From contig WHVD01000032.1 of the NCBI GenBank assembly GCA_015178975.1, forward strand, positions 310,001 through 374,000: DNA of 64,000 bases. Direction: 5' to 3'. The notes beneath the pieces were generated by a model. It did not search any database and was not told the origin of the DNA. It saw only the letters and a list, made by a program, of their open reading frames with translations. Positions 26,425 through 53,517 of this stretch are shown in pieces. Made by a program: the position numbers and the translations under genes. Source of the DNA: Hysterangium stoloniferum. Lineage: Eukaryota > Basidiomycota > Agaricomycetes > Hysterangiales > Hysterangiaceae. Each line of letters opens with the position of its first letter. The stretch's first letter is position 1.

Positions 26425-27344
26425 CTGTGATCCATTATCTCAAGGAAGTCTTCCTTGAATTGTCCATGTGGATAAAACTTGAATTTATTTTTGTTCCATC
26501 ATACAAAACAAAACAGAGATTACATAGTATGGCAACACTTAGCTTTTGTCAGGGATGTGTTTGTGGATGCAAACATGGGGAGATTGGAAATCAGAGACTT
26601 TATAAATACATATCACCCACTAATTCAACCCTATTAATTCTACAATGAGGGTGATTGACCTAGAGAATAATATCAATAATATAATACAATCTGGTTGATT
26701 ATTTGGCTCCTTGAGTAAGTAAACATTACTTTGGTAATGATATTTACATAAAATGCATTTGAGTCTTGACATTTACTACTTCATTGCTCACATATATTGT
26801 TTCACATGAATTCTTTCAATCTTGAAAATGACGGTGAGCCCTAAAACAAACGAAGTATTTCAAGAACGTTGATCTCCACGTGAGATCTAGATGTGTACAA
26901 GTACAAATATATCCAGACTCGTTTGAGCTATGAGGTAAGCGTGTCCATCCGGCTGAAGGTCCAACAAGTTTCGGACGCGATGTGGATTATCGTGAGAACA
27001 AGGGCAGACCACAGAAGTTCGACACATTGGATCCCTCACGGCAGCCAATTTTGCGGCATTGCTCAAAGCTTGGTGTCTTCTTTCTCGTCCGAGGTCACGA
27101 TGTTGGACAACCAATATAACCATCTATCCGATGAAATTTCATCTTTGGAGTTATGGAAAAGATTTACGATCACACGTGCCCAAACCTTCGTTTCCGAAGA
27201 TTGCGACTGCGATACAGCCAATGTCCAATGTTGGCATGGGTCGCGGCGGACTTGTCCATCGATCACATAGAGAACGCTAATGAGGCATCAAGCGCCAATA
27301 CGGATATAATTAATCAAATCATAAAACAAAAATATCAGTCCTAT
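26425..27344. other. Left-arm sequence outside the zinc-finger gene
   Basis: This is 3' flank of the zinc-finger gene, mirrored at 52071-52993. Frames of up to 125 codons run through it on both strands in both arms, but none resembles a known protein and I do not call them genes. Confidence 0.5.
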
Positions 27345-29915
27345 TTATACAATCCCGCCGTCGTCCTCTTCATCAAGAGTACTCCGTTCCTCGAGCTCCT
27401 GCTCCTGTGCCTCCTCATCAAGGATAAAAATTCTATCCAATCGTGCAGGAGGAACATACCCGAGTTCTTTTGCTATCGTGAGGTATGCTCCAGATATGAG
27501 CTGCCGCCGTAGTTTCGCACATTTTTTGCAGTTCTGACACTGTGCATCGCCTGCCAGGCAGTTCTGGCACTCACCGCATCCCTCACAAACTCCACAGTAT
27601 GCAAGCAAGGAGCACTCGCGGCTATTCCTAATGTGGGTGCGGATTTGGTCCGCTCTTGACCACGTTTGATGGCAGGCAGGATTCGGACAGAAGTGTGTGA
27701 AATATTGCTCTGCAATCCGACGCTTGTGTTCTGTGGTGATAATGCGCCCATCGCAGAGCTTGATTGTATGATTTCTGATCGCTCGGAGCTCATCGCGAAC
27801 ATGGACCACCCAGTGTCGTAGGGCGTGGTCCAACACGGTCGCCAGACTACACACTGTCTTTCCACAGTGCATGTTCCCATAAGGACAAGGCACTTCGGAT
27901 GAAATTAGTCCGGTGTGAGTTGACGACCATGAAGAGGCGGGAGACGAGGAAGAGGGGGAGGGTTTAGGGGAATGTTTTAGTGCGATTCCCCGAGGACACT
28001 TGGGACCTAACAAGACCCGTTTGGCACGTTTATTGAGTGCCTTTTGTTTTTGTTGCGGTTTTGACCCATGTGGGCCAAAAACAAAAGCGTTAGCAGGCGG
28101 ATGCCCGCTAACTCGTTTTTTATTGCGGCTCCGGTTTCCGCAGACAGTAAAGCTTTTACTTTCTGTCCGTGGTTCAGAACCAATTACATGAAATCGCGGG
28201 TTGGCGGGTGCGCGCCTGAGTTTGTATTTTATTAGTATCTTGTTGTCAACAATCAATAAAATAATCCATACGTATGGGCCCCGTCAACCCAAGCGACGGC
28301 CGACGGCCAGTTTGGTGCCTGCTCTCTTGACACTTCCTGTGAATGAGTTGGAAATGATATCAAACTACACCACAAGTATCGGCATATTTATCGTGAAGCT
28401 CCAGTCAGACAACGTACTTGACAGAATGGCCTGTTTGTGTAAAGTCGGGAGCAGCAGCGGTATTGCTCCATGGATTCATGCATATGGAGGATGAATCAGA
28501 CGGCCTGGTGGTAGCTGACATAGTAGTTGTAGAATTGGAAAATCTAAATTTAAGCTGCGCCATCAGCGGTCCTTTGAGCTGAAATCAGGTCTCACATACC
28601 CGCCATTCCATCCACCAAGTGAATAATATGAGGGTATGCTCGTATTGCATTGGTATTGCTGCGGTAACCCTATTGGAAACGTGTTGGACGGTGCCCCCCG
28701 ACCACTTGGAAGCACCATGGGATCCGGGGACGGATCCCACTGTGAAGAATGAGATATCGCAGAATCCATCCGTGTACTCTGCGGGAAGCTACGTGTGTAA
28801 TAAGTAGTTAGATAAAATAACGATAACTAGAAGCCTCGGACTCACGATCCGTAGTCGGGCGTCGCATCCCACCTCGAAGAGGCGCTCGTGTTGGGGAAAT
28901 GGGATATCCATGAGTCCATGGAATTGCTATAAAACAATCGAGGGTCAGATCTTGTAATATGTCGTATCTGTGCCGATAAATTACCTCTGGTAACTATGTT
29001 CATTAATCCCTGGCAGTAGAGCTGAAAGCGGGGCCTCTGTGTTCCTCAACCACATTCGGGACCTGTCTTCGCTATCATGAAAATGTTGGTAGCAGGGCAG
29101 GTTGGGGCCTGAAGGAACAGGCTGGCCATAGCTATGAACATAATCGTGCGTTATATGTGGATAATTTCAAGACGTCGCATCAACCGAAAACTTACCCCGG
29201 ACCATGCCCACTGACCCCTGGCGGCGGGGCCGAAAACGATGCTATTATATCGTCCAACCTCATCCAGGACCCCTCTTCACTGCCCAAATCTCGGTTGTAC
29301 CCCGAGCCCAATGTTGAAGGAACGAGCCAATCGTTTGGGGATGCCAGTCCTGATAAATCAGGAGGGTAAACGAACTGGGGACGAGTGTCGCCAGTATCGA
29401 AGGTAGGGGCACCCAGCGGATACCTCTCATCAGGTAGTCCTTGTGAAAAAAACCATTGACAGGGATCTTCTTGCCCAAATCCATTCAGAGCTCCACCGTG
29501 GACGCCGGGAAAATGATTAAAATCGGGGTGTGCGGCATGGCTACAGGACGATTGACGAGATAGCCCCTGCCTAAATAGTCCAGAAAAATGAGAATTAATG
29601 AACATGCCGCGCAAGATCAACACAACTAACTCACAGGTCATATGAGTCGTAAGGAGAAAATCTCTGGTCAGGATAAGTGGCGTCTTCCCTAAAAAATGGT
29701 CACGTTAGAATGGTGGTGGAAATATCACATGAAGAAAAGACGAAATGTCGTTAAATAGGGCGTACATTATTGTGAAATTGAGAAGAACTGTTGATTCTAA
29801 GTTGTAGGTGACGAGTCTGTGGTTAAGGAAAAACTGGCTGAAGAAATGAGAGTTAGTGTGAGGTTATATACCCGCTTATCCGCATCAATAAACTCAAATT
29901 CAAGCTTCCCGCCAT
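27345..29915 (-). CDS. Zinc-finger protein, nine exons, left-arm copy
   Basis: This is the mirror copy of the gene at 49496-52070, with the same exon-intron layout. The ATG is at 29915 and the last exon is about 27345-28215. The first two-thirds of the protein is Ser/Pro/Gly/Gln-rich and low in structure (QGLSRQSSCSHAAHPDFNHF, DPSPDPMVLPSGRGAP). The C-terminal third has candidate zinc ligands: CPYGNMHC...HALRHWVVH, CPNPACHQTWSRADQIRTH and the Cys-rich run CGVCEGCGECQNCLAGDAQC. An acidic tail follows (LDEEDDGGIV at the end). Such a layout suits a DNA-binding regulator, but the family is not known to me. Differences from the right copy include E/D, V/L and synonymous changes, so both may be under constraint. 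Confidence 0.7.
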
Positions 29916-32832
29916 TGTCTTTGTTTTCCAATATCGCAAATGAAGAATCTACCCCTCGTGGATAACATGTGTTGGGTGCCAACTCAATTTCATTTCGGAA
30001 GCGGTCCTCTGCTGGTAACCCTTATTATCAATATGACCGGCTAGAGATGAGAAGGAGGAAGGAAGTGAGGTATTTAACAGGTAAGGAAAACAGCCTTCCC
30101 TTTGTTTTTCTTTGTATTAAATGGTGCAGCGCACAGCCACACTGCGTCAGCCACCGACAGGAGCTTGGATTGTTACACTACAGCTCTGACTTACAAAGAT
30201 ATCTTGTAGGTTAATTGTCAAACAAGATGGGAATAAACAATGAATACTCAATAATGCAAGTCGAACACCCGTGCGACAAGGCTAATAAACTGCCGTATCA
30301 AACTTCGGTCACAAGCATGAGAAAGTACACTCCCAGTTTGGAATCGTCGAATCCAAGTCATCGGATTGAAACTTCCATTCAACAACAGCCTTCCTCCACA
30401 CCAGTTTCACGACGTGGATAGGTTATTAAAAACCTCGTCTTCAGTCACATCTTAATCAAGCCTAGTCATTGTACAGTTCATCACCTCATACTGCATTCGA
30501 GACTCAGGACCATGAGAATCTGGAGAAGTTTACACTGAATAGGGTGTAAAGGATAGTCGACTATAAATACAACGAGTAAATGCCACTTCCAAATCTCATT
30601 GCTGTCCGCTCACAGATCTACGCTGGATCTTCACGGGGTGGCATCCATTATGGGCTTCAGAATGTATTGAAAGGACTATTATCGGATCGCCTATTATCAT
30701 CGCAGAAACAACGCATGTTTTGAGCGCTCATATTCCATGGTATGGTTACCCGAAGTGCCAATAATCATCTCAGTTTGTGTTTAGTAGCCATTTCCAATTG
30801 TTTTCTTAATGCTGCGGAAGAACAAACGGCGGATTAGTGTACAGAGTTTCAATCGCTCTCATCTCCTAAATGAAGGATTGAACATGTGTCACTTCATAAA
30901 ATTTGTGGAAAGGCTAGGTGAACCTACATTTGTCGAGCGAAGGAGTTCACTGCAGATACGTTACTTGTGCCTGTGGATAGCAGGATGGTGAACATAGCAA
31001 TGTCAGATGTGATCACGCAGAGGAACATTAGGTGGCTATTTTCTCCGGATATTATCCGCTCTGACGTGAGTCGACTCACTCAGAGTGACTCCAAACCTCA
31101 CCTTTAACACATATTTAATTGTTCAAATAGATGCCATTCTATGCAGTGCGAGATGAGAGATTGTGTTATTGTGATATTGCCAATGTGAACCGTGTGGCAA
31201 CAGTATCCGTGATCTTTGAATGGAAGATGTGAACAATAAATAAGGTTACAGCCCGTCAAAGAGATACTAATACAAACAGTCTCAGTTCCTCTTAATGGAA
31301 AATTGGAATGGTCAGATGAATCAGCCAGTGAGTTGGGTTATAGAGTAGTACACAGCATAGGTGTATCGCCGCGATGTTACCACACTGCTGGCACACGTGG
31401 TGGCCAACCTACTGCAGGCTTCGCCAAGGTTGCCACCCTAGGAAAACAGAGGTAAAGAAAGTAAATACCAGCAACAATGACCGTTGAGATGGTAAGGAAT
31501 TGAGCAGATGGTTCAAACGACCCTCACAATGAGTCACAGATATCCCATACTCCTTGATAAGAACCAAAACGCCAACATGTCTTTCATCTCCACGGTCACT
31601 CACAATATCTGTCGGTGATTTACATTCCCTAGCATTGAGCCTTATGCTATTCTTCCTCATCCCTTTTGCACTGAATCAATGGTTGATAAATATATATATA
31701 CCCTTACTGAAGTTTTCCTATTTCGTCTTCACATAGGCTGAATTCGGCGAAGAAAAGTCACATATTCACAATGAAAAGATTTGACGCCAATACTGGTCCC
31801 GCTGGCCTCAGGACCGAGCTCGAATGGCTCACGAAGGATGGTTTACTCAGTCCTTCAAGTGCTCAAACGATAGTTTAAGATTGCTACCCCTATGACTTGC
31901 CTGGGCATGGATAATATTATTGTCGATACCCAAGTCCTGTATCAATAGAGTTTCTGAGTCGAGACGCCTTAAATACCAGTATCCGTTTATGTGACCAAAA
32001 AATCTTCTGTCGGAAAATCTAATTTCTATCAGTATGGTCTCTATCCATCACAGAAGGTGCGGTCAGTTTTTTTATAATGTTCTCCATCCATACAGGGTAT
32101 CAGTGATATCAATCCTCTGATAGTTTTTTCTCCTTCGAGCTTCGTGGGGGCAGTGACAGCAACGAGCACTGTAGCAAGCGTAAGGTGAAATAAATTGATT
32201 CAAAGAAGAGAGGGATATAAACTACCGGCGTTGACTCCACGGAGTAGATTATGGCATACCTCTGCATTGCGTCTCCACGAGAATCCCCATCACTATCAGG
32301 AACTTGGACTGTCCCAACTTGAGGTGAAGTGTTGCTCTACGAACGGCTAACACAGTATAGGAGAGGAATTAACCAAGCAAAGACCAAACGGTGAATGGAG
32401 CGCACATACGGAATAGTAAATTTGTGAAACACATGCTGTTTCCTGCAGTGTTGCAGGTTTAGGCAAAATTCTATAAAAAGATGAAAATGGATCCCAGGTT
32501 TTGGTGTGATTGAATCCAAGTCAACCACACTCCTTGCTCAGCCACAACGTTCTGTCGGTTCCTGACCCTAGAGCATTAAACGTCTTGTTATCTATGGCCG
32601 CAAGATTGGTCCTTTTGCGAGTTCGATGCTTAGCATAACATGAGCTTTACTGACAACACCTTGATCAGCAAATAAGATGTAATTAGAATAGTCGACTTTG
32701 AGAAAAATAGATCCTCACCTTAAATTCTCACTCTCATTGACTGTCAGGCCGTAAGCAAGATTGTGGATACTAGTGCGGAAAATTTTGGAGAAAAGGTCTA
32801 GCTGGGGTCGCTCAGTGGCACCGCAAGACGAT
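29916..32832. other. Left-arm sequence upstream of the zinc-finger gene
   Basis: It is mirrored in the right arm at 46571-49495. It would contain the promoter of the zinc-finger gene. Frames such as 31409-31660 (minus, hydrophobic C-terminus VFTFFTSVFLGW) and 32337-32528 (minus) are conserved in both arms only because the arms are near-identical. No family is recognised. The region holds no transposon. Confidence 0.45.
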
Positions 32833-33024
32833 GCGGGTGTTCATCGCGAGCGATGTGAGCCGCAGATAAAATTATCAATATTCGTTGACATATCAGCGAG
32901 ACCCGGCTTTACATAGCGTTGTTTTATGGATGTTAAAAAGACCAGCTATTTGACCCAAACAAAATCCGCTATGATGTAGGTTAAATGGCGCAGAAATTTG
33001 TTAGGAAATCATGGGGTAGTTTTG

Positions 33025-33240
33025 TAGCTGTTTCGGGTACATAGTGCGGAGTTTTAAAATCAATGCTTTGGATGTCAAAAGTAATTGCCATATAACTCCA
33101 TAACAAGATGGAAATAACATATGATACTTTGTATTTAATATGTTTATACATGGGGCAATTATTGCTATGCAAAATGTGTGATAAACTATTATTTAAAATT
33201 TGGGCCTCTGTGCAACTCTTGGTCCGAATATTGGCCTTAA
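33025..33240. mobile_element. One-ended fragment of the CAGCTGTTCC fold-back family
   Basis: TAGCTGTTTCGGGTACATAG, then TGCGGAGTTTTAAAATCAAT, then TAACTCCATAACAAGATGG and ACATGGGGCAATTATTG follow, step by step, the left half of the element at 53518. The inverted right half is missing. It is the only transposon trace in the spacer of the large inverted repeat that I can identify. Confidence 0.7.
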
Positions 33241-33260
33241 GGGCTTATTTTATATAAGCT

Positions 33261-33319
33261 CCGCCAATCGGATCCTTAACCGATTTAAATCGATTAAGGA
33301 TCCAACATGTGATTGGCGG
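33261..33319. repeat. Near-perfect 59-bp palindrome
   Basis: The core GGATCCTTAACCGATTTAAATCGATTAAGGATCC-type palindrome (33270-33303) has one mismatched pair around a TTTAAA centre. The outer arms CCGCCAATC (33261-33269) and GATTGGCGG (33311-33319) extend it after a 7-bp offset. CCAAT-type boxes (ATTGG/CCAAT) lie in both outer arms. It stands 0.5 kb upstream of the next gene. It may be a cruciform-forming site or a tiny fold-back element. Confidence 0.7.
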
Positions 33320-33824
33320 GTTTAGAATCCAACGAACTTTTGGATCCTTAAAAGATGCTTTACCAATTTCAACTCTTATAACGATTCAATGGATGATTCT
33401 TGGAGTTTATATACTAAGGATCTTAACTTTTTTTTGGAGAGGGGGGTTATCCCGGTGTGGAGAGCAGCCAGTATAATGTGTTTGGGAACAATAGAAGATA
33501 CAACAGAAGAGAAATGTGGACTGTGCAAATCTCGATCAAGGTGGTACCAGGGAAAATTACTCTTTTGTGTGCTCCAAGAATAGATGTTGCGTGCGTGTAC
33601 TCAACAGCCCAGGCGGAGCCGAGTTCAACAACCTATGTATGTGTGGGCAAACCGGAAAGGCACTACGCCACGTGACATGTCCAAAGGTCACTGACTCAGC
33701 ACAACCGTGGGTGAGCGCCTAATGGCGGTCGTGTGTCGCCTCTTCTTTTATCGCCGCGACCACCCATCGACATTGGAACCCACGCGAAGCACACCGATAT
33801 CATCTATTCAGCTCATAAACCCCT

Positions 33825-34683
33825 ATGGCTCTCATTTCACAGGCTTTGGAACCTCATAAACAATGGAATTTCTCCGCGATCACTAACTACCGCGGTTCAG
33901 ATCGTGTGGCAGGTCGAAAGAGGAGTCGCGATGTAGATGATGAGAACGAGAACGAATCCATGTGTCATCATGAGAGCAATCTAAGAGGTTCCAGCAAGAA
34001 ATTTCGAGTAAAGGATGTGTTGGACGCGTCTTCATTAATGAGCGCGTTTGATGGGGCGTTTTCGCACCCAGAATCGGTTAAGGATGGCGTCCCTGTTCAG
34101 GACAATAATGCTATAACAGCAACCGCTACGGAGGCTCTAGAGGTCGCGAAAGTTATCGCGATCTTGCTTGATACCCTCGACAAGAAAAAGTCACAACAAT
34201 TGTTACCTTCACCCCAGGCGAGCCCTCATAGGCGCCTGCCTACATCTCCCCTTTCGGATTCGCCGTATAGGGCACCTTTTGTTAGGAAAGAGGTTGGAGG
34301 CGTATGCCGCGGTCGTGTGGAACCGGGATTGCAGAAGTGGTTGTTGCGCAAGAATCACATGGATGAGTGGGTCTATATTTTTTTTGCTTTTTGTATTATA
34401 TTCCAATCTTGCCCTATTTAGTATTCGGACCTCTTCACCATCATCCAAGTCCTCTGAATGGCTCGAGTCTTTTCATGAGATGGGCTGGGAAACGTTGCAC
34501 CCCTCGTGGGTGTCTCATTCGGATGATACTTTCACCGCACCCGATGACGCCTTCGATGACTGGATCGAGGTCGATGTGGACCGTGTCGCCTCGAACTCGC
34601 GAGCGGAAATTGACATTCCAGAGGCACAGAACAATGTATGGAATAGCGCAGAGGCACAAGGCCAATTCTTGGTGGCATTTTAG
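33825..34683 (+). CDS. Hypothetical basic nuclear-type protein, two exons
   Basis: Model: 33825-34370 and 34450-34683, with a 79-bp GT-AG intron; 780 nt, 259 residues. It starts MALISQALEPHKQWNFSAIT. It has a Lys/Arg cluster AGRKRSRD followed by an acidic stretch (DVDDENENESM) and SSKKFRVKD, which together look like a bipartite nuclear signal. A helical segment follows (ATATEALEVAKVIAILLDTL), then a Pro/Ser-rich part (SPQASPHRRLPTSPLSDSPY). Exon 2 is acidic with Trp (SSEWLESFHEMGWETLHP, DDWIEVDVDRVAS). No family is recognised. An alternative acceptor at 34421 would end the protein early. Confidence 0.55.
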
Positions 34684-35086
34684 GAATCGAGTACATGGAG
34701 TTGGATGGAGTCTTTGGTCATACCTTATCCCGTTATTTTTGTGATTGTCAAAATCTTTTCAAAGTTGTTTATCTATCTGTCTGTCTCCTACATCGATTAC
34801 ATCTATATGTGCAATATCATCGTTGTTCTGATCTTGTTTTGAACCCTATGACCATTTCCTAATGGTGGCCCATTGTCCATATCACACCGCAACGTGGGGC
34901 GGAGTCATTTTAAGCGTGACGCCCAAGTTAGTTATGTAAGCTGGCGGTTAATGAGTTACTTAACCCGTTTTGGAACTCTTCGACGTCCCTTTAACTTGCT
35001 TTGGAACGCGTGTTTTTGAAGCGAATAGTGTCAGAGAAGTCTCCTTCGACATTGTGCAACAGCTACTAACAATACTATAGACTTTC
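34684..35086. other. Intergenic region, likely beta-tubulin promoter
   Basis: The 400 bp contain CT-rich stretches (TCTATCTGTCTGTCTCC) and CAAC-type motifs near the tubulin ATG, which are common in fungal promoters. No transposon or RNA gene is seen. Confidence 0.4.
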
Positions 35087-37799
35087 ATGGCTCAGGAGAT
35101 AATAACAGTCCAAGTTGGACAGGTAAGTTAGGTCCATTAGAGTCTCGTGCCAAAACGGATCATTTTTACTTTTGCAGGCGGGAAATCAGGTCAGCGATCA
35201 CACCCCAGATAACAGTGATATCATTCCTTACATGTAACCTAGGTTGGAGAAGCCTTTTGGGAGATGATCCTTGCGGAACACGGGCTCGATGGCACGGGGG
35301 TGCGTTTCAATATTTGGAAATGGGGTCGTGTCTAAATTGTGACGATAGGGCTATATCGGCACAGATCCACAGCAGCTTTCAAGGGTTGGATATGTGCTAC
35401 TGGTTGCGTTGTTGACGTTTACTAAGAGCTTGTTCAGATTGGGGTGTACTTCACCGAAGTGAACTCGGAGCGGGCTGCGAAATACGTCCCTAGAAGCGTT
35501 CAGGTCGACTTGGAGACTGGCGTGCTGAACAGGGTTCGTCATAATTAAGCCGCGATTGAAAAAAAATCAATGTTAACGTGGTTTATGCTTCAGATTCGAT
35601 CTGGTCCCCATGGATCGCTCTTTCGACCAGATACCATGATCACAGCCGAATCTAGTATGAATTCCTGCACTCCAAGTTCGCTATTTCTTATAATGGCACT
35701 CTTTCTTCCTCAGGTGCTGGAAATAATTGGGCAAAAGGATGTATGTCTTTGTCACGTTCATTGGCAATTCAAACCACTGATCAGTTCCGCAGACTACACA
35801 GAGGGTTCGTTTTCCAACATTTGAATCGGGTTTTAGCCAGGAACAAGATTCAGTTTGCATGTAGGCGCAGAACTCATCGAGCAAATTCTCGTAAGTCCAT
35901 CTCCGTCTACCTGTCGACGTATTGTTTCTCAACGTACCTCCTTTCGTCTTCAGGAAGTTCTAAGGCACCAATCAGAAGCATGTGACGCCCTGCAAGGTTT
36001 TCAAATGCTGCATTCCCTTGGAGGTGGGACAGGATCTGGGCTTGGATCCCTGTTGTTATCGAAAATACGCGAAGTAAGTGCAAGGCCCGTTCAAGCTTTC
36101 AGCATGTATAACCGAACGATTATAAGGAATATCCTGACCGGATGCTCTCTACTTTCTCTGTTCTTCCGTCTCCGAAGGTACGTTCAAGACTAATGCTTGA
36201 CGTTGTTCATAATAACCGTCCTATCTAGGTCTCGGAGACAATCGTCGAGGTATGATATATGCTGCGTCATGCAGGATGTCTTGAACACAACTTCGTTATC
36301 CTTCAGCCATACAATGCCTTATTATCTATCCATCAACTGGTCGATAATAGCGACATGACGGTTTGTCTGGACAATGAAGCCTTGTAAGAACATGACCGTG
36401 GCCCCTTCCCGTATCTGACAACTCTTGGATAGGTATGACATCTGCGTCAAAACATTGAAGATTCCAAATCCTGCCTTTTCGCAACTTAACAAGGTGCGTC
36501 TGTCTATGTCGCCTGATATCGTTACCGACGACCGCAACTGCCATAGCTGATCTCTCAAGCCATCTGCGGAGTTAGTACGTCTCTGCGTTTCCCAGGACAA
36601 CTCAACGGGTAAGCCTCTTACTTCCACTTGAATTCATGGCTGAGATCTCCTTCCTGATGTCAGCAATCTCCGGAAGCTCTCTATGAATTTGGTCCCCTTC
36701 CCACGTGTGAGTGGACAGACTGCATAGCTTTTGCAAACGCCCTGAACACATCATCCCAGCTTCATTTCTTAGTTCCTTCTTCGACACCATTCTACGCCGA
36801 GTCGTCAAAGTCCTTCCAGGGCAACAATGTCGCTGAGCTCACTTCGTCGTATGTTGACCCGGCTTTGTGCCTTATATATCTCACTAATACATTCCTCGAC
36901 AGCCTGTTCGAGAAGAAGCATGCGCTTGTCGCCGTCGAGCCACGCTTTGGCAAATATCTGACTGCTGCTGTGATTTTCCGAGGAAATGTCTCTTCGAGAG
37001 ATGTACGTGATTACATGTAATCTCTTTGCATTGACTTACTTAATATCCATAGGCCGAGGTATGGACCAATCAGATATAATATGAATACGACTTGTTGAGA
37101 TGTCGTATGTAGACTTCGGTGAACCAACTTCATAACAAGAATTCTAGCATGTTTACCGAGTAAGAATGATTACGTAACCATAAATGAATCTCGCTAATAC
37201 CTTTGTTAGCTGGATTCCTGACAACATTTCACTGTCTTTGTGCAGTGTCCCACCCGTGGGTTTCAAACGAGTATGTTATCATCTCTATCCATCTGTTCAT
37301 TATACTATATATATTAATCTTCATTTCTAGTCTGCAACAGCTCTTGGCAATACCGTATGCCTTTCATTCCGCGCCGTGACTTCTTCATCTCACATTCAAA
37401 ATAGACTGCCATCCAAGATTTATTCAAGCGTAACATGGCACAGTTCTCCGCTATGTTCAAGCGCAAAGCTTTCTTGCATTGGTATGAAGGCGAAGGGATG
37501 GACCAGATGGAGTTTACGGAGGGTGAGTGGCCTGGCTCTTGTGACGGCAAAGTTGACGTCTTCTTTTTAGCTGAGAGTAACGTTCTCGATCTCATGTAAG
37601 TATGCTATAACTGCACCGGGAATCACATACTAATGATGGCATTCGCCTATAGCGCTGAATACCAGCAGGTACGCTTATTTGCAATAAAATATTACAGTCA
37701 ACCATCTGACGTCATCCATAGTATCAGGAAGCGACCCCCGAGGAGGAAGATGGCGAATACGAAGATGGAGACGCTGTTTCGGCAGTCCTCTCTCAATAA
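35087..37799 (+). CDS. Divergent beta-tubulin, intact, about two dozen small exons
   Basis: Exons joined across GT-AG introns give a protein of about 450 residues that aligns end to end with beta-tubulin: [50 protein letters not shown], the GTP-binding loop [80 protein letters not shown], and an acidic tail [11 protein letters not shown]. No frameshift or stop was found in the exons. Beta-tubulin polymerises with alpha-tubulin into microtubules. This copy is unusual: MREI is MAQEI, Cys12 is Ala, and the residues matching His6, Glu198 and Phe/Tyr200 are Thr, Met and Val. It is probably a second, fast-evolving paralogue rather than the housekeeping gene. Confidence 0.88.
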
Positions 37800-40868: not shown

Positions 40869-41829
40869 CAGTAGCTGAGTCACCAGTTGTATATGGTGGA
40901 CGCCGTAAGCCTGGTGCCCAGTCTTATGTGCGGACCTTTTACTTGTTACATAATCATCGTTTTTCCCCCCGTTCACTAGTTCATCGAGCGATACACCGTG
41001 GTCCTATCAACCTGTGTGGCCCACCCAGTAAGCCTATTTGATGATAGACTTTCAGACGCGCACAAACAACGTTAGTATTACTAAGTTACTGTAACGAACT
41101 ACACGGACCCGAAGCCAGGATGCTTAAGGCGGCCCGGCCCGAAGGATCACTAAATGTAAATAGTCCTTCGCCTAAGGGAAGATGTACGCTATCTCGAGAC
41201 AAGTGAGAGGAATAGGTGGGTGTGGCCTTCTCAGTCCAACATGGTCATTTAATAAACAACGTCAGAATTTATCTTTAGGCCGTCTTCACGTCTTCAGCTC
41301 TGCTGTGCTACGGTTCAACTTTTCTCAGCCACGAGGTTATTAATCTACTCGAATGTCAACTTGGCTCGACAGATGCCGTATTACATACTTAAGGCTTGAC
41401 AGAAACGCAGCAGCTCAAAATGCTGATCGCAGCGATGCCGAGGTCGATGTGCTCACTTCAACACCAGCGCTCACTGCTCACATATTCTGGTTGAAAGCGG
41501 GAAACCCCGATACTTCAAATATGAGGCGCAGAACAATTAGCAAGAAGTATTTAAATCTGGGACAAATCGTTACAGCTCATACCTGCTGGACTGTCCCCCC
41601 ATTGGTCATAACATTGCAAGATGAAACTATTGTTTTTCTGTTTGCTGGATTTATGTCGTTTGGCGTCGCACACGATGGGTTGAGGGTCAACACTCACAGG
41701 GTGCCGTCACTGGGAATTCAGCGTTCCAGAGCATTCGACAATTTCTTGATATTCCATTCGCGACAGCGAACAGATGGTAGCCGCCTCAATTCCCTGCTGC
41801 CAGGAGCGTGTCTTCTAACGTGACAACCT
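40869..41829. other. Spacer between carboxylesterase A and the esterase pseudogene
   Basis: The homology between copies A and B stops at 40868. The 40912-41030 stretch is a dispersed repeat also at 13433-13620. A frame at 41353-41823 (156 codons) is open but not recognised; its HTCWT peptide is probably chance. Confidence 0.45.
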
Positions 41830-42715
41830 CTGGCCACTACTGTGTCTAAGATATCAACGCTGTTACCTCGGAATTTTTTCAAGTTCATAGGGTTGGGAGA
41901 TCAGAGTGCTCAAGAGCCTGAGCATGGCCCAAGTGTCAACGTGTGGACACCAAGCACTGCTATGAACTGCCGTACAAACCTATTAGGTATACACAATACA
42001 CCACAGCTTGTTGACGTCGACCTTCCTCAGAACTTTTAGATGTCGACCTAGCTTTTCAATGGGTACATAACAAGATCGCAAAATTTGGTGGCGACCCAAA
42101 TCGAATCGTTCTTTTTTGCCAATCTGCAGGTAGCGGAATTATTGATGTCTACATCATCCTACAGATCAGATCATTAAATGTAGGATGGCATTTTTGAAAG
42201 CTTTGATATTGGTGCTAGCGATATTAGGCGTAATTGAATAGTTTGGAAGGTCTGTCGACAGGAGACTTATCAATATTCTTTACATTAACGACACCCAAAA
42301 ACACCATAGCAGGCCAATTCCCTGTGCTTCTTGCGCACGCACAGGCACTGGATCCGACTGCTTGGAACACAGAGCAGCGCTGTTGGGTGTGGAAATGGTA
42401 CGTTAACTATCGCGGCATATCGTTTCTAAAGGTCTCCATGCTCATTGGAAAGACTGCACAAGAAGACGATACTTTTATTGTTGGAGGAGAATTAGCAAGC
42501 TCATATTTCACGATCCCCGTTGTTCCACGAGTGGCTGCAGATGCTGCAACTTTGGTGAGAAAGACTTTCATAATATCAATTGATGGTCTTTAATATGTTG
42601 TTAGGTGGCAGTCGAATGCCCGGCCGTGACGACATCAAATGACCGTGTTTGAGGTCCCTATCTGGAGATATCAATATCGATGTGAATACTGTACGTTCCA
42701 TTGTGGTTCATGCAG
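41830..42715 (+). pseudogene. Carboxylesterase pseudogene, third copy
   Basis: Fragments in the right order match the neighbouring esterases. FKFIGLGDQSAQEPEHGPSV corresponds to LIGLGDQKVTQSEHCLS. AFQWVHNKIAKFGGDPNRIV and FCQSAGSG correspond to the nucleophile elbow. LKVSMLIGKTAQEDDTFIVG corresponds to LLVGNTNQEGDIFVV, and VECPAVTTSNDRV corresponds to FSCPAGTTAKDHA. The glycine before the nucleophile elbow is Cys, the start, oxyanion-hole and His exons are missing, and frameshifts separate the pieces. It is much more diverged from A and B than they are from each other. Confidence 0.8.
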
Positions 42716-42811
42716 ATATATGATTTTATACAGTGGATTTCTCCGATATATATATCGTCGCTTCGGCTTGTGGTTCTCCTAGAAGATGAATATCACGATA
42801 TCTGCCGTGTT

Positions 42812-43198
42812 TCAGAGTCTGCGCGTGACGAGAGTTGGATATTCTGCAATCGTCGGGTCGTACATCAGGTAGGGGGAGGCACCGCTTTCATTGTATTTAG
42901 CGGATATCGGTTCAGGTGCACCCACATGTGGTTGATACTTTTTCCCAGCAGGCTTTCGATGAACCCACTTAGTTCCCTTGGCCATGTTCGAGCGGACTTT
43001 GTCATAGGTAAACACCGCCAAAGGCTTGATGTCATCGTGCGTCTTCCATTTGGGCGGGTGCGTCCGCAGGACTCGGGCTCTGAGGCTGTCGTTCGTGATC
43101 CCATGTTGGAGGTGAAAGTCTTGCAGGTCCAGAGGTATGAGCATTCTGGCTATGTCTATGGCATCGATTTTCTCGGTCTCGACCGTGGGGTTCGTCAT
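42812..43198 (-). CDS. Unrecognised open frame, 128 codons
   Basis: The minus-strand frame starts MTNPTVETEKIDAIDIARML and is rich in charged residues (HPPKWKTHDDIKPLAVFTYD, KWVHRKPAGKKYQP). It has no intron, signal peptide or membrane segment. Its composition looks more protein-like than the other anonymous frames nearby, but I know no family for it. It could be an exon of a larger gene or chance. Confidence 0.25.
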   Translation of the reverse strand: MTNPTVETEKIDAIDIARMLIPLDLQDFHLQHGITNDSLRARVLRTHPPKWKTHDDIKPLAVFTYDKVRSNMAKGTKWVHRKPAGKKYQPHVGAPEPISAKYNESGASPYLMYDPTIAEYPTLVTRRL

Positions 43199-44296
43199 CG
43201 TCGCATCCTTAGACTGGGCTGGTGTTTCTTTGCTTGTTTTCTGTCATCGGAATCTCGCTCTGTTCTATGTTCATAACGTGGGGGTAGATATGATATTTGG
43301 GGGGTGGTTGTGGTCTTGTAACTCTTCTGAACCGCTCAGTAGTTTCATGGTTCTTCGGGGAGTGAACTGGTTGGAGGTTCTCGTTAAGTCAGGGCCTGGT
43401 TGTTATGTTGTCTATCTTAGGGCCGTTGTCTCGAGATTGAGTGAAAATGTCGTTGACGTGCATGGCATGGCCATTGTGTGATTTGATGGCATTTTATTTC
43501 ACTCTTTGGTTTCTAATAATTTTATTCAATGGGCTATTTGCTGTTACCCGGCTAGCCTACAGTGGGCCGCCGTTTATGTTGGCTGTCTTTATCTGGTTTA
43601 GGCGGCTAATTTGTTCGAGGTGGGGGCTGATGGGGATACAGTAGACTTGCTCATAACCCATAGCGCCGGGGAACCCCAATTTGGCCCAAATTGCTATGCA
43701 TAATGCATTGTGAGCTGGCAATATGGCAGGCAGGCGCCCAGTCGTTCTGACCCGAACCCTATGCATTATGCATTATGGGAAAGTTTACTGTATATGCTAT
43801 TCAACGATTTTCATACACAGCAAGAGATGGCTGCTGTCACTGAAGTGAACGACGAATAAAGTACCTATAATTCAACGGTGCATTGACTCGTCTGGTCAAG
43901 GGTTTTGTGTGCGGCCCAAGGTTTCTAAACGGCGTAGTGCCAGACTCCGCTGATCGTCCCCGACCTCGTCGGAGGGTGACATGTCTCCTGATATACGTGA
44001 AAAACTTCTTCGGGAGTACGTCCTTTTATGGTGGCTCATGATCTGTGAGTTCAGAAGGGAAGGCACTTTTCCCCAACTGCGTGGTATGTGTCATTATTCG
44101 GGGTAAGCCAAGAAGGATGAGGTATATAGCAGCCCAAACAGTTTTTCTCACCTGTTGTAGGCCCTAACGCCGTCATGATCGGGATCAAGAGCTTCCTATT
44201 TCACAGACTAAATCAATTATCGAAATCGAAGGTGTCCTAAGATATAAGTTGGCAATTGGGGAACACTTGCAACTTACCACACCTCTCTGGGACCAA
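43199..44296. other. Intergenic region upstream of carboxylesterase B
   Basis: No gene. It contains a direct/inverted cluster of ATGCATTATGCATTATG-type words near 43695-43780 (TATGCATAATGCATTG and CTATGCATTATGCATTA). The last 80 bp align loosely with the promoter of copy A. Confidence 0.4.
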
Positions 44297-46255
44297 ATGA
44301 AGGTCCTCGACAGTCTCAAGCCGTTCATAACTCTCCTTTTAACAACCTCAGTAACGCTCGCACAGGATGCCGGCTTGACCGTTCAAACGCAGCAAGGAGC
44401 TGTAGCTGGAACCCTTGTCACTCCTAAAGTCCGGCAATTCCTAGGGGTGCCATTCGCAGTGGTGACCAGATGGGAACCACCCGAAATTCCCCCGACTCGA
44501 AGTACAATACTACAGGCCACAGCTTTCGGCGATTCTTGTATACAAGACATCGATAAAAGTTCCGGCAAATTTTTGGATCTTAGTGGCCTAGGGGACCAGA
44601 AAGTCACAGAATCCGAGCAATGCCTTAGCCTGAATATTTGGGCTCCAAGTTCGGCCAGAAAACAGAGTACAGCTGTGATGATTTGGATATATGGAGGTGG
44701 CTATGCCTTTGGAACCGTAAGAATACTCATGTCGTGTTGACGATGCGAATGTTCGCGGCTGATGCCGGAGTTTGATATTTTTAGAGTAATACCATAATTT
44801 ACGACGGACAGGAGCTGGTCGGTAATAATGACGATGTCCTTTTGGTAACCGTCAATTACCGAACCAATATATTTGGCTTCCCTGGTGCCCCCCAGCTGTC
44901 CAGCAAGAAGCAATCGCAAAATTTCGGGGCGCTGGATGTTGATGCAGCAATTCAATGGGTTCACGATAACATCGCCTCATTCGGAGGTAATCCGGAACGC
45001 ATCACGATATTTGGCCAGAGTGCCGGAAGTGGATTGGCTGCGGCATATACATTTGCCAATCCGACGGACACAAGGGTGAAAGGAAAGACTTGTCACGGAT
45101 TTGCGACCTGTATCCAATCAATTGATTATCTACAGGTGTTATCCAAGAATCGGGCAGGTGAATCAATTAGTTCTTGGAATATGTACAATCCAGCAACTCA
45201 AATGAGTAAAGTTTGGCGGGATTGACCACAGCTTTAACAGCATTTGGCGGTCCCTTGGATCCCTCACAGTGGAATGGGGTCGCAGATGAAGTCGGTTGTG
45301 GTAGTTGTATGCTCTCTATCCGACTATGAAATAGTTTATCCACTTACAAATGCCCTATAGCCGCCACGGCAGCTCAATTGACATGTATGAAAGCTGTCTC
45401 CGCCACCGCCCTAGAAGCTGCGGTGGCTAAGACTGGTAATGGGTTTGAACCCGTTCAGGATGGTTAGCCGTCAGCCACGATATGTATTATGGCCGTGTAC
45501 TGAACGAATTAAAGGTATCACGTTCTTTTCAGATGCGACTGACAGATCTGCTGCGGGGAATTTCCTCCATGTGCCGTTGTTAGTGGGGAACACTAAACAA
45601 GAGGGAGATATTTTCGTCGTCGCCGTTGAACAACTGGATCTAGGCTTTGACATTCCAGGATTGACCACTCTAGGAAGTGATGCTGTCACTAAGGTGCGTA
45701 GTGGATATTCACTGTCACAGTCTATTTGACACTATAATAATGAGCCACGTCCAGGTTGTTTTTTCTTGTCCAGCAGGAACGACAGCAAAAGATCACGCAA
45801 AAGTTGCCCCAACTTGGAGATATCGATATGATGGTACTACTCACATTGCCATTTCTCGCTATAATACCTAATGCAGATATATTATCCCAGCCGTCTTTCC
45901 CGACATCTCCAGTAGGTCAGACCTACGTTCCTTCCATGCCTCGGAACTCCCTATCGTCTTTGGAACCTATAATCCTTCACCATTCGGACCGCCGACCGCC
46001 GCTGAAATCCCGTTTTCGACATATGTTCAAGGAGCTTGGGTATCCTTCGCGCGGGATCCACAACATGGACTCGTGAACTATGGCTGGCCGCTATATAATC
46101 CCGATACAAACAGTCTTGCACTTCTCGGGTCGTCCGATAATCAGACTGGGGTGGTCTTCTCGAGTGGTTCTAGCTACGACTCGGACTGTGGCCTGAGTGA
46201 GTTCGCAGGTACTCTCGCTCTTGATGTGGTCAGTTTTTTGGGAAGTATCTTCTAG
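44297..46255 (+). CDS. Secreted type-B carboxylesterase/lipase, copy B, eight exons
   Basis: Model: 44297-44716, 44785-45082, 45136-45157, 45212-45300, 45361-45462, 45515-45693, 45755-45833, 45921-46255; 1524 nt, 507 residues. The exon structure is that of copy A, shifted by exactly 5700 bp from exon 2 onward. It has two extra residues after the signal peptide (AQDAGLTV versus AQGLTV). Catalytic Ser (FGQSAGSG), Glu (GNTKQEGD) and His (FHASELP) are all kept. Exon 1 and intron 1 differ from copy A clearly more than exons 2-8 and the 3' flank do, where only scattered changes occur. The 3' flank stops being esterase-type at 46571, where the right arm of the inverted repeat begins. Confidence 0.87.
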
Positions 46256-46570
46256 ATAGGGTCTGCTTTACATTATTTTCCGGGCTTTGTACCTTGCATT
46301 TGACAGCAGCGCATCCTACGCATTTCCATCAAATTACTGTGCAGTGTACCTAAGTATCTGAATGCCCTTTTTACATTGATGGGCAGGTGGGGAGTAAAAT
46401 ATCAAGAATGGACATCTCCGGTTCTCTAGGCCAATGAACAAGTGCAGATAACACTGAGTTTGCGTTGCGTTAGGCTATTGTTCGGATTTATTGATATTTG
46501 TGTTGCAAGCCGTTGAGATGCTGACGGCTGTGCTGTGTTTTTTGTGTTATATTATATCATCAAGTGATGG

Positions 46571-49495
46571 ATCGTCTTGCGGTGCCACTGAGCGACCCCA
46601 GCTAGACCTTTTCTCCAAGTTTTTCCGCACTAGTATCCACAATCTTGCTTACAACCTGACAGTCAATGAGAGTGAGAATTTAAGGTGAGGATCTATTTTT
46701 CTCAAAGTCGACTATTCTAATTACATCTTATTTGCTGATCAAGGTGTTGTCAGTAAAGCTCATGTTATGCTAAGCATCGAACTCGCAAAAGGACCAATCT
46801 TGCGGCCACAAATAACAAGACGTTTAATGCTCTAGGGCCAGAAACCGACAGAACGTTGTGGCTGAGCAAGGAGTGTGGTTGACTTGGATTCAAGCACCCC
46901 AAAACCTGGGATCCATTTTCATCTTTTTATAGAATTTTGCCTAAACCTGCAACACTGCAGGAAACAGCATGTGTTTCACAAATTTACTATTCCGTATGTG
47001 CGCTCCATTCACCGTTTGGTCTTTGCTTGGTTAATTCCTCTCCTATACTGTGTTAGCCGTTCGTAGAGCAACACTTCACCTCAAGTTGGGACAGTCCAAG
47101 TTCCTGATAGTGATGGGGATTCTCGTGGAGACGCAATGCAGAGGTATGCCATAATCTACTACGTGGAGTCAACGCCGGTAATTTATATCCCTCTCTTCTT
47201 TGAATCAATTTATTTCACCTTACGCTTGCTACAGTGCTCGTTGCTGTCACTGCCCCCACGAAGCTCGAAGGAGAAAAAACTATCAGAGGATTGATATCAC
47301 AGATACCCTGTATGGATGGAGAACATTATAAGAAAACTGACCGCACCTTCTGTGATGGATAGAGACCATACTGATAGAAATTAGATTTTCCGACAGAAGA
47401 TTTTTTGGTCACATAAACGGATACTGATATTTAAGGCGTCTCGACTCAGAAACTTTATTGATACAGGACTTAGGTATCGACAATAATATTATCCATGCCC
47501 AGGCAAGTCATAGGGGTAGCAATCTTAAACCATCGTTTGAGCACTTGAAGGACTGAGTAAACCATCCTTCGTGAGCCATTCGAGCTCGGTCCTGAGGCCA
47601 GCGGGACCAGTATTGGCGTCAAATCTTTTCATTGTGAATATGTGACTTTTCTTCGCCGAATTCAGCCTATGTATGTGAAGACGAAATAGGAAAACTTCAG
47701 TAAGGGTATATATATATTTATCAACCATTGATTCAGTGCAAAAGGGATGAGGAAGGATAGCATAAGGCTCAATGCTAGTGAATGTAAACCACCGACAGAT
47801 ATTGTGAGTGACCGTGGAGATGCCAGACATGTTGGCGTTTTGGTTCTTATCAAGGAGTATGGGATATCTGGGACTCATTGTGAGGGTCGTTTGAACCATC
47901 TGCTCAATTCCTTACCATCTCAACGGTCATTGTTGCTGGTATTTACTTTCTTTACCTCTGTTTTCCTAGGGTGGCAACCTTGGCGAAGCCTGCAGTATTA
48001 CAGGTTGGCCACCACGTGTGCCAGCAGTGTGGTAACATCGCGGCGATACACCTATGCTGTGTACTACTCTATAACCCAACTCACTGGCTGATTCATCTGA
48101 CCATTCCAATTTTCCATTAAGAGGAACTGAGACTGTTTGTATTAGTATCTCTTTACGGGCTGTAACCTTGTTTATTGTTCACATCTTCCATTCAAAGATC
48201 ACGGATACTGTTGCCACACGGTTCACATTGGCAATATCACAATATCACAATCTCTCATCTCGCACTGCATAGAATGACATCTATTTGAACAATTAAATAT
48301 GTGTTAAAGGTGAGGTTTGGAGTCACTCTGAGTGAGTCGACTCACGTCAGAGCGGATAATATCCGGAGAAAATAGCCACCTAATGTTCCTCTGCGTGATC
48401 ACATCTGACATTGCTATGTTTACCATCCTGCTATCCACAGGCACAAGTAACGTATCTGCAGTGAACTCCTTCGCTCGACAAATGTAGGTTCACCTAGCCT
48501 TTCCACAAATTTTATGAAGTGACACATGTTCAATCCTTCATTTAGGAGATGAGAGCGATTGAAACTCTGTACACTAATACGTCGTTTGTTCTTCCGCAGC
48601 ATTAAGAAAACAATTGGAAATGGCTACTAAACACAAACTGAGATGATTATTGGCACTTCGGGTAACCATACCATGGAATATGAGCGCTCAAAACATGCGT
48701 TGTTTCTGCGATGATAATAGGCGATCCGATAATAGTCCTTTCAATACATTCTGAAGCCCATAACGGATGCCACCCCGTGAAGATCCAGCGTAGATCTGTG
48801 AGCGGACAGCAATGAGATTTGGAAGTGGCATTTACTCGTTGTATTTATAGTCGACTATCCTTTACACCCTATTCAGTGTAAACTTCTCCAGATTCTCATG
48901 GTCCTGAGTCTCGAATGCAGTATGAGGTGATGAACTGTACAATGACTAGGCTTGATTAAGATGTGACTGAAGACGAGGTTTTTAATAACCTATCCACGTC
49001 GTGAAACTGGTGTGGAGGAAGGCTGTTGTTCAATGGAAGTTTCAATCCGATGACTTGGATTCGACGATTCCAAACTGGGAGTGTACTTTCTCATGCTTGT
49101 GACCGAAGTTTGATACGGCAGTTTATTAGCCTTGTCGCACGGGTGTTCGACTTGCATTATTGAGTATTCATTGTTTATTCCCATCTTGTTTGACAATTAA
49201 CCTACAAGATATCTTTGTAAGTCAGAGCTGTAGTGTAACAATCCAAGCTCCTGTCGGTGGCTGACGCAGTGTGGCTGTGCGCTGCACCATTTAATACAAA
49301 GAAAAACAAAGGGAAGGCTGTTCTCCTTACCTGTTAAATACCTCACTTCCTTCCTCCTTCTCATCTCTAGCCGGTCATATTGATAATAAGGGTTACCAGC
49401 AGAGGACCGCTTCCGAAATGAAATTGAGTTGGCACCCAACACATGTTATCCACGAGGGTTAGATTCTTCATTTGCGATATTGGAAAACAAAGACA
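46571..49495. other. Right-arm sequence upstream of the zinc-finger gene
   Basis: Mirror of 29916-32832. No gene is recognised. It supplies the promoter region of the right-arm zinc-finger copy, nearly identical to that of the left copy. Confidence 0.45.
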
Positions 49496-52070
49496 ATGGC
49501 GGGAAGCTTGAATTTGAGTTTATTGATGCGGATAAGCGGGTATATAACCTCAGACTAACTCTCATTTCTTCAGCCAGTTTTTCCTTAACCACAGACTCGT
49601 CACCTACAACTTAGAATCAACAGTTCTTCTCAATTTCACAATAATGTACGCCCTATTTAACGACATTTCGTCTTTTCTTCATGTGATATTTCCACCACCA
49701 TTCTAACGTGACCATTTTTTAGGGAAGACGCCACTTATCCTGACCAGAGATTTTCTCCTTACGACTCATATGACCTGTGAGTTAGTTGTGTTGATCTTGC
49801 GCGGCATGCTCATTAATTCTCATTTTTCTGGACTATTTAGGCAGGGGCTATCTCGTCAATCGTCCTGTAGCCATGCCGCACACCCCGATTTTAATCATTT
49901 TCCCGGCGTCCACGGTGGAGCTCTGAATGGATTTGGGCAAGAAGATCCCTGTCAATGGTTTTGTTTACAAGGACTACCTGATGAGAGGTATCCGCTGGGT
50001 GCCCCTACCTTCGATACTGGCGACACTCGTCCCCAGTTCGTTTACCCTCCTGATTTATCAGGACTGGCATCCCCAAACGATTGGCTTGTTCCTTCAACAT
50101 TGGGCTCGGGGTCCAACCGAGATTTGGGCAGTGAAGAGGGGTCCTGGATGAGGTTGGACGATATAATAGCATCGTTTTCGGCCCCGCCGCCAGGGGTCAG
50201 TGGGCATGGTCCGGAGTAAGTTTTCGGTTGATGCGACGTCTTGCAATTATCCACATCTAACGCACGAGTATGTCATAGCTATGGCCAGCCTGTTACTTCA
50301 GGCCTCAACTTGCCCTGCTACCAACATTTTCATACTAGCGAAGACAGGTCCCGAATGTGGTTGAGGAACACAGAGGCCCCGCTTTCAGCTCTACTGCCAG
50401 GGATTAATGAACATAGTTACCAGAGGTAATTTATCGGCACAGATACGACATATTACAAGATCTGACCCTCGATTGTTTTATAGCAATTCCATGGACTCAT
50501 GGATATCCCATTTCCCCAACACGAGCTCTTCTTCGAGGTGGGATGCGACGCCCGACTACGGATCGTGAGTCCGAGGCTTCTAGTTATCGTTATTTTATCT
50601 AACTACTTATTACACATGTAGCTTCCCGCAGAGTACACGGATGGATTCTGTGAAATCTCATTCTTCACAGTGGGATCCGTCCCCGGATCCCATGGTGCTT
50701 CCAAGTGGTCGGGGGGCACCGTCCAACATGTTTCCAATAGGGATACCGCAGCAATCCCAATGCAATACGAGCATACCCTCATATTATTCAGTTGGTGGAT
50801 GGAATGGCGGGTATGTGAGATCTGATCTTAACTCAAAGGACCGCTGATGGCGCAGCTTAAATTTAGATTTTTCAATTCTACAACTGGTATGCCAGCTACC
50901 ACCAGGCCGTCTGATTCATCCGCAATATGCATGAATCCGTGGAGCAATACCGCTGCTGCTCCCGACTTTACACAAATAGGCCATTCTGTCAGGTACATTG
51001 TTTCTGACTGGAGCTTCACGATAAATATGCTGATACTTGTGGCGTAGTTTGATGTCATTTCCAACTCATTCACAGGAAGTGTCAAGAGATCAGGCACCAA
51101 ACTGTCCATCGGCCGTCGCTTGGGTTGACGGGGCGCACACGTATGGATTATTTTATTGATTGTTGACAACAAGTTACTAATAAAATACAAACTCAGGCGC
51201 GCACCCGCCAACCCGAATATTCATGAGATTGGTTCTGAACCACGGACAGAAAGTAAAAGCTTTACTGTCTGCGGAAACCGGAGCCCCAAGAAAGAACGAG
51301 TTAGCGGGCGTCCGCCCGCTAACGCTTTTGTTTTTGGCCCACATGGGTCAAAACCTCAACACGAAAAAAAGGCACTCAATAAACGTGCCAAACGAGTCTT
51401 GTTAGGATCCAAGTGTCCTCGGGGAATCGCACTAAAACATTCCCCTAAACCCTCCTCCTCTTCCTCGTCTCCCGCCTCCTCTTCATGGTCGTCAACTCAC
51501 AGCGGACTAATTTCATCCGAAGTGCCTTGTCCTTATGGGAACATGCACTGTGGAAAGACAGTGTGTAGTTTGGCGACCGTGTTGGACCACGCCCTACGAC
51601 ACTGGGTGGTCCATGTTCGCGATGAGCTGCGAGCGATCAGAAATCATACAATCAAGCTCTGCGATGGGCGCATTATCACCACAGAACACAAGCGTCGGAT
51701 AGCAGAGCAATATTTCACACACTTCTGTCCGAATCCTGCCTGCCATCAAACCTGGTCAAGAGCGGACCAAATCCGCACCCACATTAGGAATAGCCGCGAG
51801 TGCTCCTTGCTTGCATACTGTGGAGTTTGTGAAGGATGTGGTGAGTGCCAGAACTGCCTGGCAGGCGATGCACAGTGTCAGAACTGCAAAAAATGTGCGA
51901 AACTACGGCGGCAGCTCATATCTGGAGCATACCTCACGATAGCAAAAGAACTCGGGTATGTTCCTCCTGCACGATTGGATAGAATTTTTATCCTTGATGA
52001 GGAGGCACAGGAGCAGGAGCTCGAGGAACGGAGTACCCTTGATGAAGAGGACAACGGCGGGATTGTATAA
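49496..52070 (+). CDS. Zinc-finger protein, nine exons, right-arm copy
   Basis: Model: 49496-49539, 49723-49776, 49841-50215, 50279-50425, 50484-50564, 50622-50810, 50867-50992, 51087-51140, 51197-52070; 1944 nt, 647 residues. Every intron is GT-AG and every one is in phase 2, which supports the model. The first intron (183 bp) is the least sure, and another 5' exon is possible. The N-terminal two-thirds is Ser/Pro/Asn-rich. The C-terminal exon carries a basic stretch (NKRAKRVLLGSKCPRG), a Ser run, then candidate zinc sites (CPYGNMHC...HALRHWVVH; CPNPACHQTWSRADQIRTH; CGVCEGCGECQNC) and an acidic end. It is probably a nuclear regulator; target and family are unknown. Confidence 0.72.
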
Positions 52071-52993
52071 ATAGGACTGATATTTTTGTTTGATGATTTG
52101 ATTAATTATATCCGTATTGGCGCTTGAGGCCTCATTAGCGTTCTCTATATGATCGATGGACAAGTCCGCCGCGACCCATGCCAACATTGGACATTGGCTG
52201 TATCGCAGTCGCAATCTTCGGAAACGAAGGTTTGGGCACGTGTGATCGTAAATCTTTTCCATAACTCCAAAGATGAAATTTCATCGGATGGATGGTTATA
52301 TTGGTTGTCCAACATCGTGACCTCGGACGAGAAAGAAGACACCAAGCTTTGAGCAATGCCGCAAAATTGGCTGCCGTGAGGGATCCAATGTGTCGAACTT
52401 CTGTGGTCTGCCCTTGTTCTCCCGATAATCCACATCGCGTCCGAAACTTGTCGGACCTTCAGCCGGATGGACACGCTTACCTCACAGCTCAAATGAGTCT
52501 GGATATATTTGTACTTGTACACATCTAGATCTCACGTGGAGATCAACGTTCTTGAAATACTTCGTTTGTTTCAGGGCTCACCGTCATTTTCAAGATTGAA
52601 AGAATTCATGTGAAACAATATATGTGAGCAATGAAGTAGTAAATGTCAAGACTCAAATGCATTTTATGTAAATATCATTACTAAAGTAATTTTTACTTAC
52701 TCAAGGAGCCAAATAATCAACCAGATTGTATTATATTATTGATATTATTCTCTAGGTCAATCACCCTCATTGTAGAATTAATAGGGTTGAATTAGTGGGT
52801 GATATGTATTTATAAAGTCTCTGATTTCCAATCTCCCCATGTTTGCAACCTCCACAAACACATCCCTGACAAAACCTAAGTGTTGACATACTATGTAATC
52901 TCTGTTTTGTTTTGTATGATGGAACAGAAATAAATTCAAGTTTTATCCACATGGACAATTTGAGGAAGACTTCCTCGAGATAATGGATCACAG

Positions 52994-53454: not shown

Positions 53455-53517
53455 GGAGGATATCTGAAAACTATTAAGTATATTAATTAAATTTTAATAT
53501 ACTCTAAAGGTCATTTA

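Follow-up and report, generated by a model that had tools for sequence, protein, structure and literature searches.

Inverted duplications of the fold-back type, which enclose a single-copy spacer and show short inverted microhomology, have been described in humans, and the junctions simulated in the same account share 0-4 bp (PMC3907307, the part of the report drawn on here). Fold-back priming has been described in yeast (PMC10622511, in part). Inversions from staggered breaks are known in Drosophila, where the duplicated ends measure between a few hundred bp and 8 kb (PMC4965816, in part), and in Aspergillus duplicated genes with ectopic gene conversion occur within one chromosomal region (PMC12844118, in part). 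The locus presented here resembles the human cases, as far as that part of the report describes them, in its inverted copies, its kb-sized spacer and an abrupt join with short shared sequence; the human duplications, however, are large, lie near chromosome ends and were found in patients, whereas this one is internal, has arms of 6.4 kb and has diverged by 2.3% with age (PMC3907307). With the Drosophila inversions, in the part of that account used here, it shares a gene-sized piece doubled at the ends of a segment, there up to 8 kb, but here the spacer seems to keep the orientation of its neighbours (PMC4965816). With the Aspergillus case as there described it shares signs of conversion in homologous genes that lie on a single chromosome, although the genes are other ones and conversion is suggested here by patchy divergence only (PMC12844118). 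The layout is of a known kind, and the features that were checked have ordinary explanations. A literature search on the mechanism and on comparable cases, run without species or gene names, returned no title naming this locus and so says little.

The window, i.e., the whole stretch of 64,000 nucleotides that was analysed, corresponds to contig C246:310001-374000 in an assembly of 111.1 Mb and 554 contigs; its features are collected in Table 1. In self-comparison of the window the two arms were aligned over 6,425 columns at 97.743% identity, with 126 mismatches, 7 gap openings and 19 gap bases, a likeness far above chance level. The earlier note had placed the arms at 26425-32832 and, inverted, at 52993-46571, with a few percent difference and small indels, and this was reproduced exactly. 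Both arms carry a 68-bp dispersed repeat which the other arm copies among the matches listed skip; its insertion thus predates the duplication of the arms, or conversion carried it from one arm to the other.

Table 1. Features of the window, with positions counted from its first letter; C followed by a number denotes a contig.
Feature	Positions	Strand	Basis or measure
LTR-like repeat (presumed from its edges), begins TGTTATGAC, adjoins left arm	25994-26424	-	self-comparison, edges
Left arm	26425-32832	+	97.74% to 52993-46571 (minus), window self-comparison
Left zinc-finger-like gene, 9 exons, 645 aa	27345-29767	-	hand-built model
High-divergence block between arms	27925-28824		49/900 = about 5.4%, against about 1.4% elsewhere (77 differences)
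68-bp dispersed repeat, in both arms	31832-31899		genome search with arm (query 5408-5475)
Spacer	32833-46570		13,738 bp
Dispersed repeat in spacer, many genome copies, about 73-94%	32940-33457 (to about 33459)	+	genome search
Tubulin-like gene, approximate limits; of beta type by its best matches among solved structures	35000-37100	+	tubulin pieces
Esterase copy 1, COesterase pieces	38539-40868	+	self-comparison, Pfam
Region matching C246:375484-377675	41292-42751	+	genome search
Esterase copy 2, COesterase pieces; end = putative join to right arm	44233-46571	+	self-comparison, Pfam
Putative join (one shared base) between right arm and 3' flank of esterase 2	46570-46572		self-comparison, alignment
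Right arm, inverted	46571-52993	-	window self-comparison
Right zinc-finger-like gene, 646 aa, nine exons as on the left	49644-52070	+	left model transferred by alignment
Outer flank shared with other arm copies, part 1	52994-53085		about 89-90% including arm end, to C102, C124, C544
Stretch interrupting right outer flank, with repeats including self-complementary 53514-54221	53086-54867		self-comparison, copy comparison
Outer flank shared with other arm copies, part 2	54868-55388		genome search

A full nine-exon zinc-finger gene had been claimed for each arm, and a nine-exon gene, zinc-finger-like in its product, does fit both. In the left model the exons are 29767-29766, 29688-29635, 29570-29196, 29131-28985, 28926-28846, 28788-28600, 28543-28418, 28364-28272 and 28215-27345, with intron 1 splitting the start codon; all eight introns are GT..AG, and the model fits both arms with open frames of 645 and 646 aa. 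Neither the last-exon ORF nor the ORF at 29195-29704 matched a Pfam family at E values up to 1, and solved C2H2 fingers were matched weakly (best E 0.5 with the single sequence, 0.05 with a six-row profile). These weak matches and a pattern of cysteines and histidines are the whole basis of the zinc-finger label. A CXXC-like finger was also considered and was dropped, as it appeared at E about 1 only and was absent with the profile search. Over 641 codons the genes of the two arms differ by 0.048 at synonymous and 0.028 at nonsynonymous sites, a ratio of 0.58. The conserved C-terminal part looks to be under constraint, since codons 500-599 hold 4 synonymous and 0 nonsynonymous differences. When the same model was applied to nine other copies of the family, no early stop was seen in C113b and C1, and early stops were seen in the other seven (C102, C124, C113a, C35, C544, C246b and C246c), a count into which alignment slips may bring false stops and in which three of the seven copies are partial only. 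The best explanation is that each arm holds an intact-looking member of an expanding gene family, the pair as a pair having no special function.

With the arm as query against the genome (85 rows; best 40 of 83 candidates scored), at least ten other places with more than 1 kb at 87-94% were found, on C102, C113 (two), C1 (two), C124, C246 (two), C35 and C544. The arm thus belongs to a family copied as segments, and the idea of a two-copy repeat had to be given up. Shorter or more distant matches lie on C367 and at C246:189 kb, and the last-exon ORF matches at least 92 stretches, which are not to be read as genes, many of them on C2, C46, C128, C279, C367 and C246. Judged by their likeness some of the copies are recent: the two on C113 agree at 98.8% over 6.07 kb and are alike in more of their surroundings, a C113 and a C1 copy agree at 98.4% over 3.85 kb, and those on C102 and C124 at about 97% over 2.2 and 4.9 kb. 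The copies end at differing points, and their inner ends are not alike. Four further inverted pairs of the family were recorded, namely on C367 (38036-42978 with 66325-61368, 95.7%, arms of about 5 kb lying about 18 kb apart), on C46 (979047-983426 with 1032000-1027622, 98.0%, measured to the end of the stretch compared), on C2 (64501-68223 with 79409-75640, 96.5%) and on C246 (515001-518108 with 576430-573263, 94%). Direct pairs were recorded on C113, on C46 at 1027/1057 kb (97%), on C2 at 75/102 kb (97%), on C1 at 2409/2425 kb and on C246 at 518/524 kb (85-90% in longer pieces). The pairs looked at thus comprise five inverted, the one in the window included, and five direct, with no strong preference, in a set picked along the way and not an unbiased sample. 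Longer cross-contig matches between C46 and C2 are 85-96% alike. On C113, a part matching arm positions 6-167 lies reversed at 750985-751145, about 7 kb from the rest of its copy (758394 on), and this arrangement marks a small inversion, with one break falling within the family unit.

The genome comparison of the spacer scored the best 39 of 582 candidates, and its rows leave out the window itself. Among the matches listed, the only many-copy repeat is that at about 32940-33459, and the rest comprises the esterase region (C453 and C246:375-378 kb) and one 61-bp match; the spacer is thus poor in repeated DNA, in line with the earlier note. The same note had called its genes single-copy, and here the findings differ. 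Self-comparison showed the two esterase copies, 38539-40868 and 44233-46571, to be duplicates of 94.0% on the same strand, a duplication absent from the earlier note, and paralogues of this region lie on C453 (92%) and at C246:375484-377866. The genome has several tubulin loci, the tubulin-like gene among them, with tubulin-domain matches in nine rows on C533, C223, C1 and C246, and a second DNA-level copy of it was not seen among the matches listed (best 39 of 582 candidates). Nor did these matches (best 39 of 582) include a second copy of the whole spacer, although the esterase part does have paralogues. The esterase copies, too, are about 65% alike to the stretch C246:375484-377675, and in the region 41292-42751 neither of two ORFs scanned had a Pfam match. 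Pfam searches of 15 ORF pieces from the arm-spacer-arm unit, one of them repeated, in which short exons were partly covered, gave only esterase and tubulin above the cut-off, and no transposase or recombinase domain.

The four borders of the arms were inspected one by one. At the right inner border the two esterase copies cease to align at 40868/46571, the very point at which the arm begins; a single base is shared there, and on this alignment the border is a join. At the left inner border the last 287 arm bases (32546-32832) were found only in the two arms, among the sequence compared and the matches listed, so the inner end is not a terminus shared by the family. The repeat beyond it, 32940-33457, is common to C246:523111-523758 at 81%, the usual level for copies of that repeat; the left inner flank is thus not proven ancestral by this unremarkable match, and the direction of copying would rest mainly on the join. 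Neither outer border has an element terminus of its own. On the right, homology to C102, C124 and C544 crosses 52993 as far as 53085, breaks over 53086-54867 and restarts at 54868, so that the family has no common end at 52993. A genome search with 54868-55388 found C544, C113, C102, C124 and C1, and no second copy on C246 (8 rows with the window itself, 6/6 candidates scored). Position 26425 was tried as an element terminus, since the copies on C102, C124 and C544 begin near arm position 1, and was rejected, as their likeness to the right arm extends outside it. The left arm adjoins a separate multicopy repeat, 25994-26424, which we take to be LTR-like from its edges; stretches related to it lie at 8924-9408, 55389-55781 and 60956-61187. 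The repeat at the left arm and its relative in the right outer flank are only 78% alike, far below the arms, and so are probably separate insertions. As inspected by eye, a neighbouring repeat ends at 25993, at the edge of the left one, and so occupies the place where a target-site duplication of the LTR-like repeat would lie.

Both flanks had been described as dense in transposons, and their repeat density was borne out: 9,288 of the 11,007 bases of the right flank and 7,340 of the 26,424 of the left match 255.5 kb of other loci, which were chosen around arm copies and thereby favour the right flank. In addition, a genome search with 11001-24000 gave 197 matches, and reverse-transcriptase and RNase H domains were found at 2810-3529 and RNase H domains at 61611-62228. 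A 695-bp repeat at 21451-22145 is largely self-complementary (76% to its own reverse complement), and the matches listed in the genome search include 11 other nearly full-length copies at 90-93%, most of them matching on both strands. Another self-complementary repeat, of 708 bp (53514-54221, 84%), is 73-75% alike to 33026-33211 in the spacer, and head-to-tail repeats of about 95-97% likeness were seen by self-comparison at 1142-1543. The stretch 11001-22277 has a broken, mostly direct duplicate at C246:263209-269060, in pieces 83-95% alike. This duplicate at 263-269 kb was followed for 4 kb further as a clue to the ancestral context of the left flank, and gave no answer.

We consider it fairly probable that the repeat arose as an inverted segmental duplication into the esterase cluster, by break repair or template switching. 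A duplication by break repair or fold-back had been among the proposals of the earlier note, and it is the best fit to the spacer, of which the matches listed include no further whole copy, the abrupt one-base join and the other inverted and direct duplications of the family. What was copied from the left locus would have been a segment comprising the zinc-finger-like gene and the flank outside it, which on the right spans at least 46571-55388 if later insertions are discounted. This segment would have been joined, reversed, to the sequence 3' of esterase copy 2, so that the spacer came to lie between the arms. The one-base join may have formed through end joining, fold-back priming or replication template switching. 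Since fold-back in its simplest form gives a dicentric chromosome, an internal event of this kind would need a template switch or a second break. The join at 46571 cuts the esterase duplication, and the right arm was thus placed after, or during, that duplication. Beyond the right arm, the esterase-related match C246:375484-377866 lies on the same strand as the esterases of the spacer, which favours a reversed copy inserted into the array over an inversion of the spacer. Fold-back or template-switch repair would be expected to produce inverted copies separated by a spacer and a short run of shared bases where they are joined (PMC3907307, PMC10622511). With 0-4 bp shared in simulated junctions, however, the single shared base at 46571 is within chance. 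The left arm's own outer flank would then have been lost or replaced where the LTR-like repeat now adjoins, and this presumed loss speaks against the duplication in so far as it is an extra second step. Gene conversion between the arms may later have homogenised most of their length, leaving 27925-28824 more diverged.

The differences are spread unevenly along the arms: 49 fall in 27925-28824 and 77 over the remainder. Counted in steps of 300 bp, the block holds 19, 18 and 12 differences and each of the 19 other steps, the last being shorter, 1 to 7; the richest 900-bp window holds 50 of the 126, and the maximum in 5,000 shuffles was 37. Inside the block differences were found at 40 of 699 exon bases and 9 of 201 intron bases, outside it at 21 of 1,239 and 4 of 283, respectively, so the introns have diverged in the block too, which argues against protein selection as the sole cause. 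The synonymous differences (3.0 in codons 0-299, 12.7 in codons 300-499, 4.0 in codons 500-599 and 1.0 in the last 44) track the block only loosely, the 4.0 of codons 500-599 being mostly outside it, and codons 200-299 hold 1.0 synonymous against 11.0 nonsynonymous differences. Where the arms differ (126 sites), nine other copies mostly agree among themselves in matching one arm or the other, and the changes thus look private to the remaining arm. Conversion from a sampled paralogue into one arm was rejected, as there was no consistent donor at these sites among the nine copies, and a genome search with 51100-51600 for a donor of the block found nothing closer than the left arm. The patchy divergence, introns included, suggests gene conversion, and we prefer to read it as conversion between the arms outside the block, with the block as older divergence, a step weaker than the others in the argument. 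The block may instead stem from clustered mutation, from a donor that is now absent, or from selection that was positive or in part relaxed.

The chief rival of the inverted segmental duplication is an inversion by staggered breaks, in which the spacer was turned and the 6.4 kb between the breaks copied at both ends. It explains in one step why the old outer flank is kept at one arm only, as was found, but the spacer esterases share their strand with the related match beyond the right arm, and what formerly followed esterase 2 was not recognised near the left arm: 40869-41291, downstream of esterase 1, has elsewhere in the window only matches of 54 and 66 bp, at 13.4-13.6 kb. We hold this inversion to be rather unlikely. 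Alternatively, a tandem pair of the family might have been flipped when small inversions later affected a cluster rich in repeats, so that no copying in inverted orientation took place. That small inversions occur in the family is seen from the reversed C113 piece (arm positions 6-167, about 7 kb away), but a direct duplication is required here together with an inversion break exactly at the edge between arm and esterase, and we regard this course as improbable.

A further reading, to which we would give little credence, is that of an unnamed zinc-finger-like family whose units of about 5 kb are repeatedly mirror-paired around different gene islands, where recombination between arms could flip the islands and convert the genes and, in the extreme, the units drive their own copying. 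An artefact of the assembly, with two alleles or a chimeric read falsely joined, has a very slight chance. The C102 and C124 segments, about 97% alike, show that some copies in the assembly might be allelic, but the arms differ at 126 sites and by 7 gap openings, their four borders each have a different flank, both frames are open, the other long copies are at 87-94% and no third near-identical arm was seen among the matches listed; the earlier judgement that this is a true duplication and not a collapsed repeat is thus supported. That a large mobile unit with host genes as cargo ends in the two arms, as the earlier note had also considered, is the faintest prospect of all, for although the family has its other inverted pairs (C367 95.7%, C46 98.0%, C2 96.5%, C246:515-576 kb 94%), homology passes the right outer border, which is no terminus, the ends of the copies vary, direct pairs equal inverted ones among those looked at, and the spacer matches only the dispersed repeat and the esterase paralogues (matches listed; 255.5 kb), with no cargo match at another arm copy and none on C367, C46 or C2, the inside of the C367 pair being compared through the genome search among the matches listed.

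The mirror layout is explicable without a new mobile element. The locus offers a clean example of an inverted duplication: its join is precise, its arms have diverged unevenly, the genome is rich in repeats, and the gene family has at least four more inverted pairs. Such pairs would allow a comparison of how inverted pairs arise and of whether conversion acts on them, and one gene family with five mirror pairs merits study.
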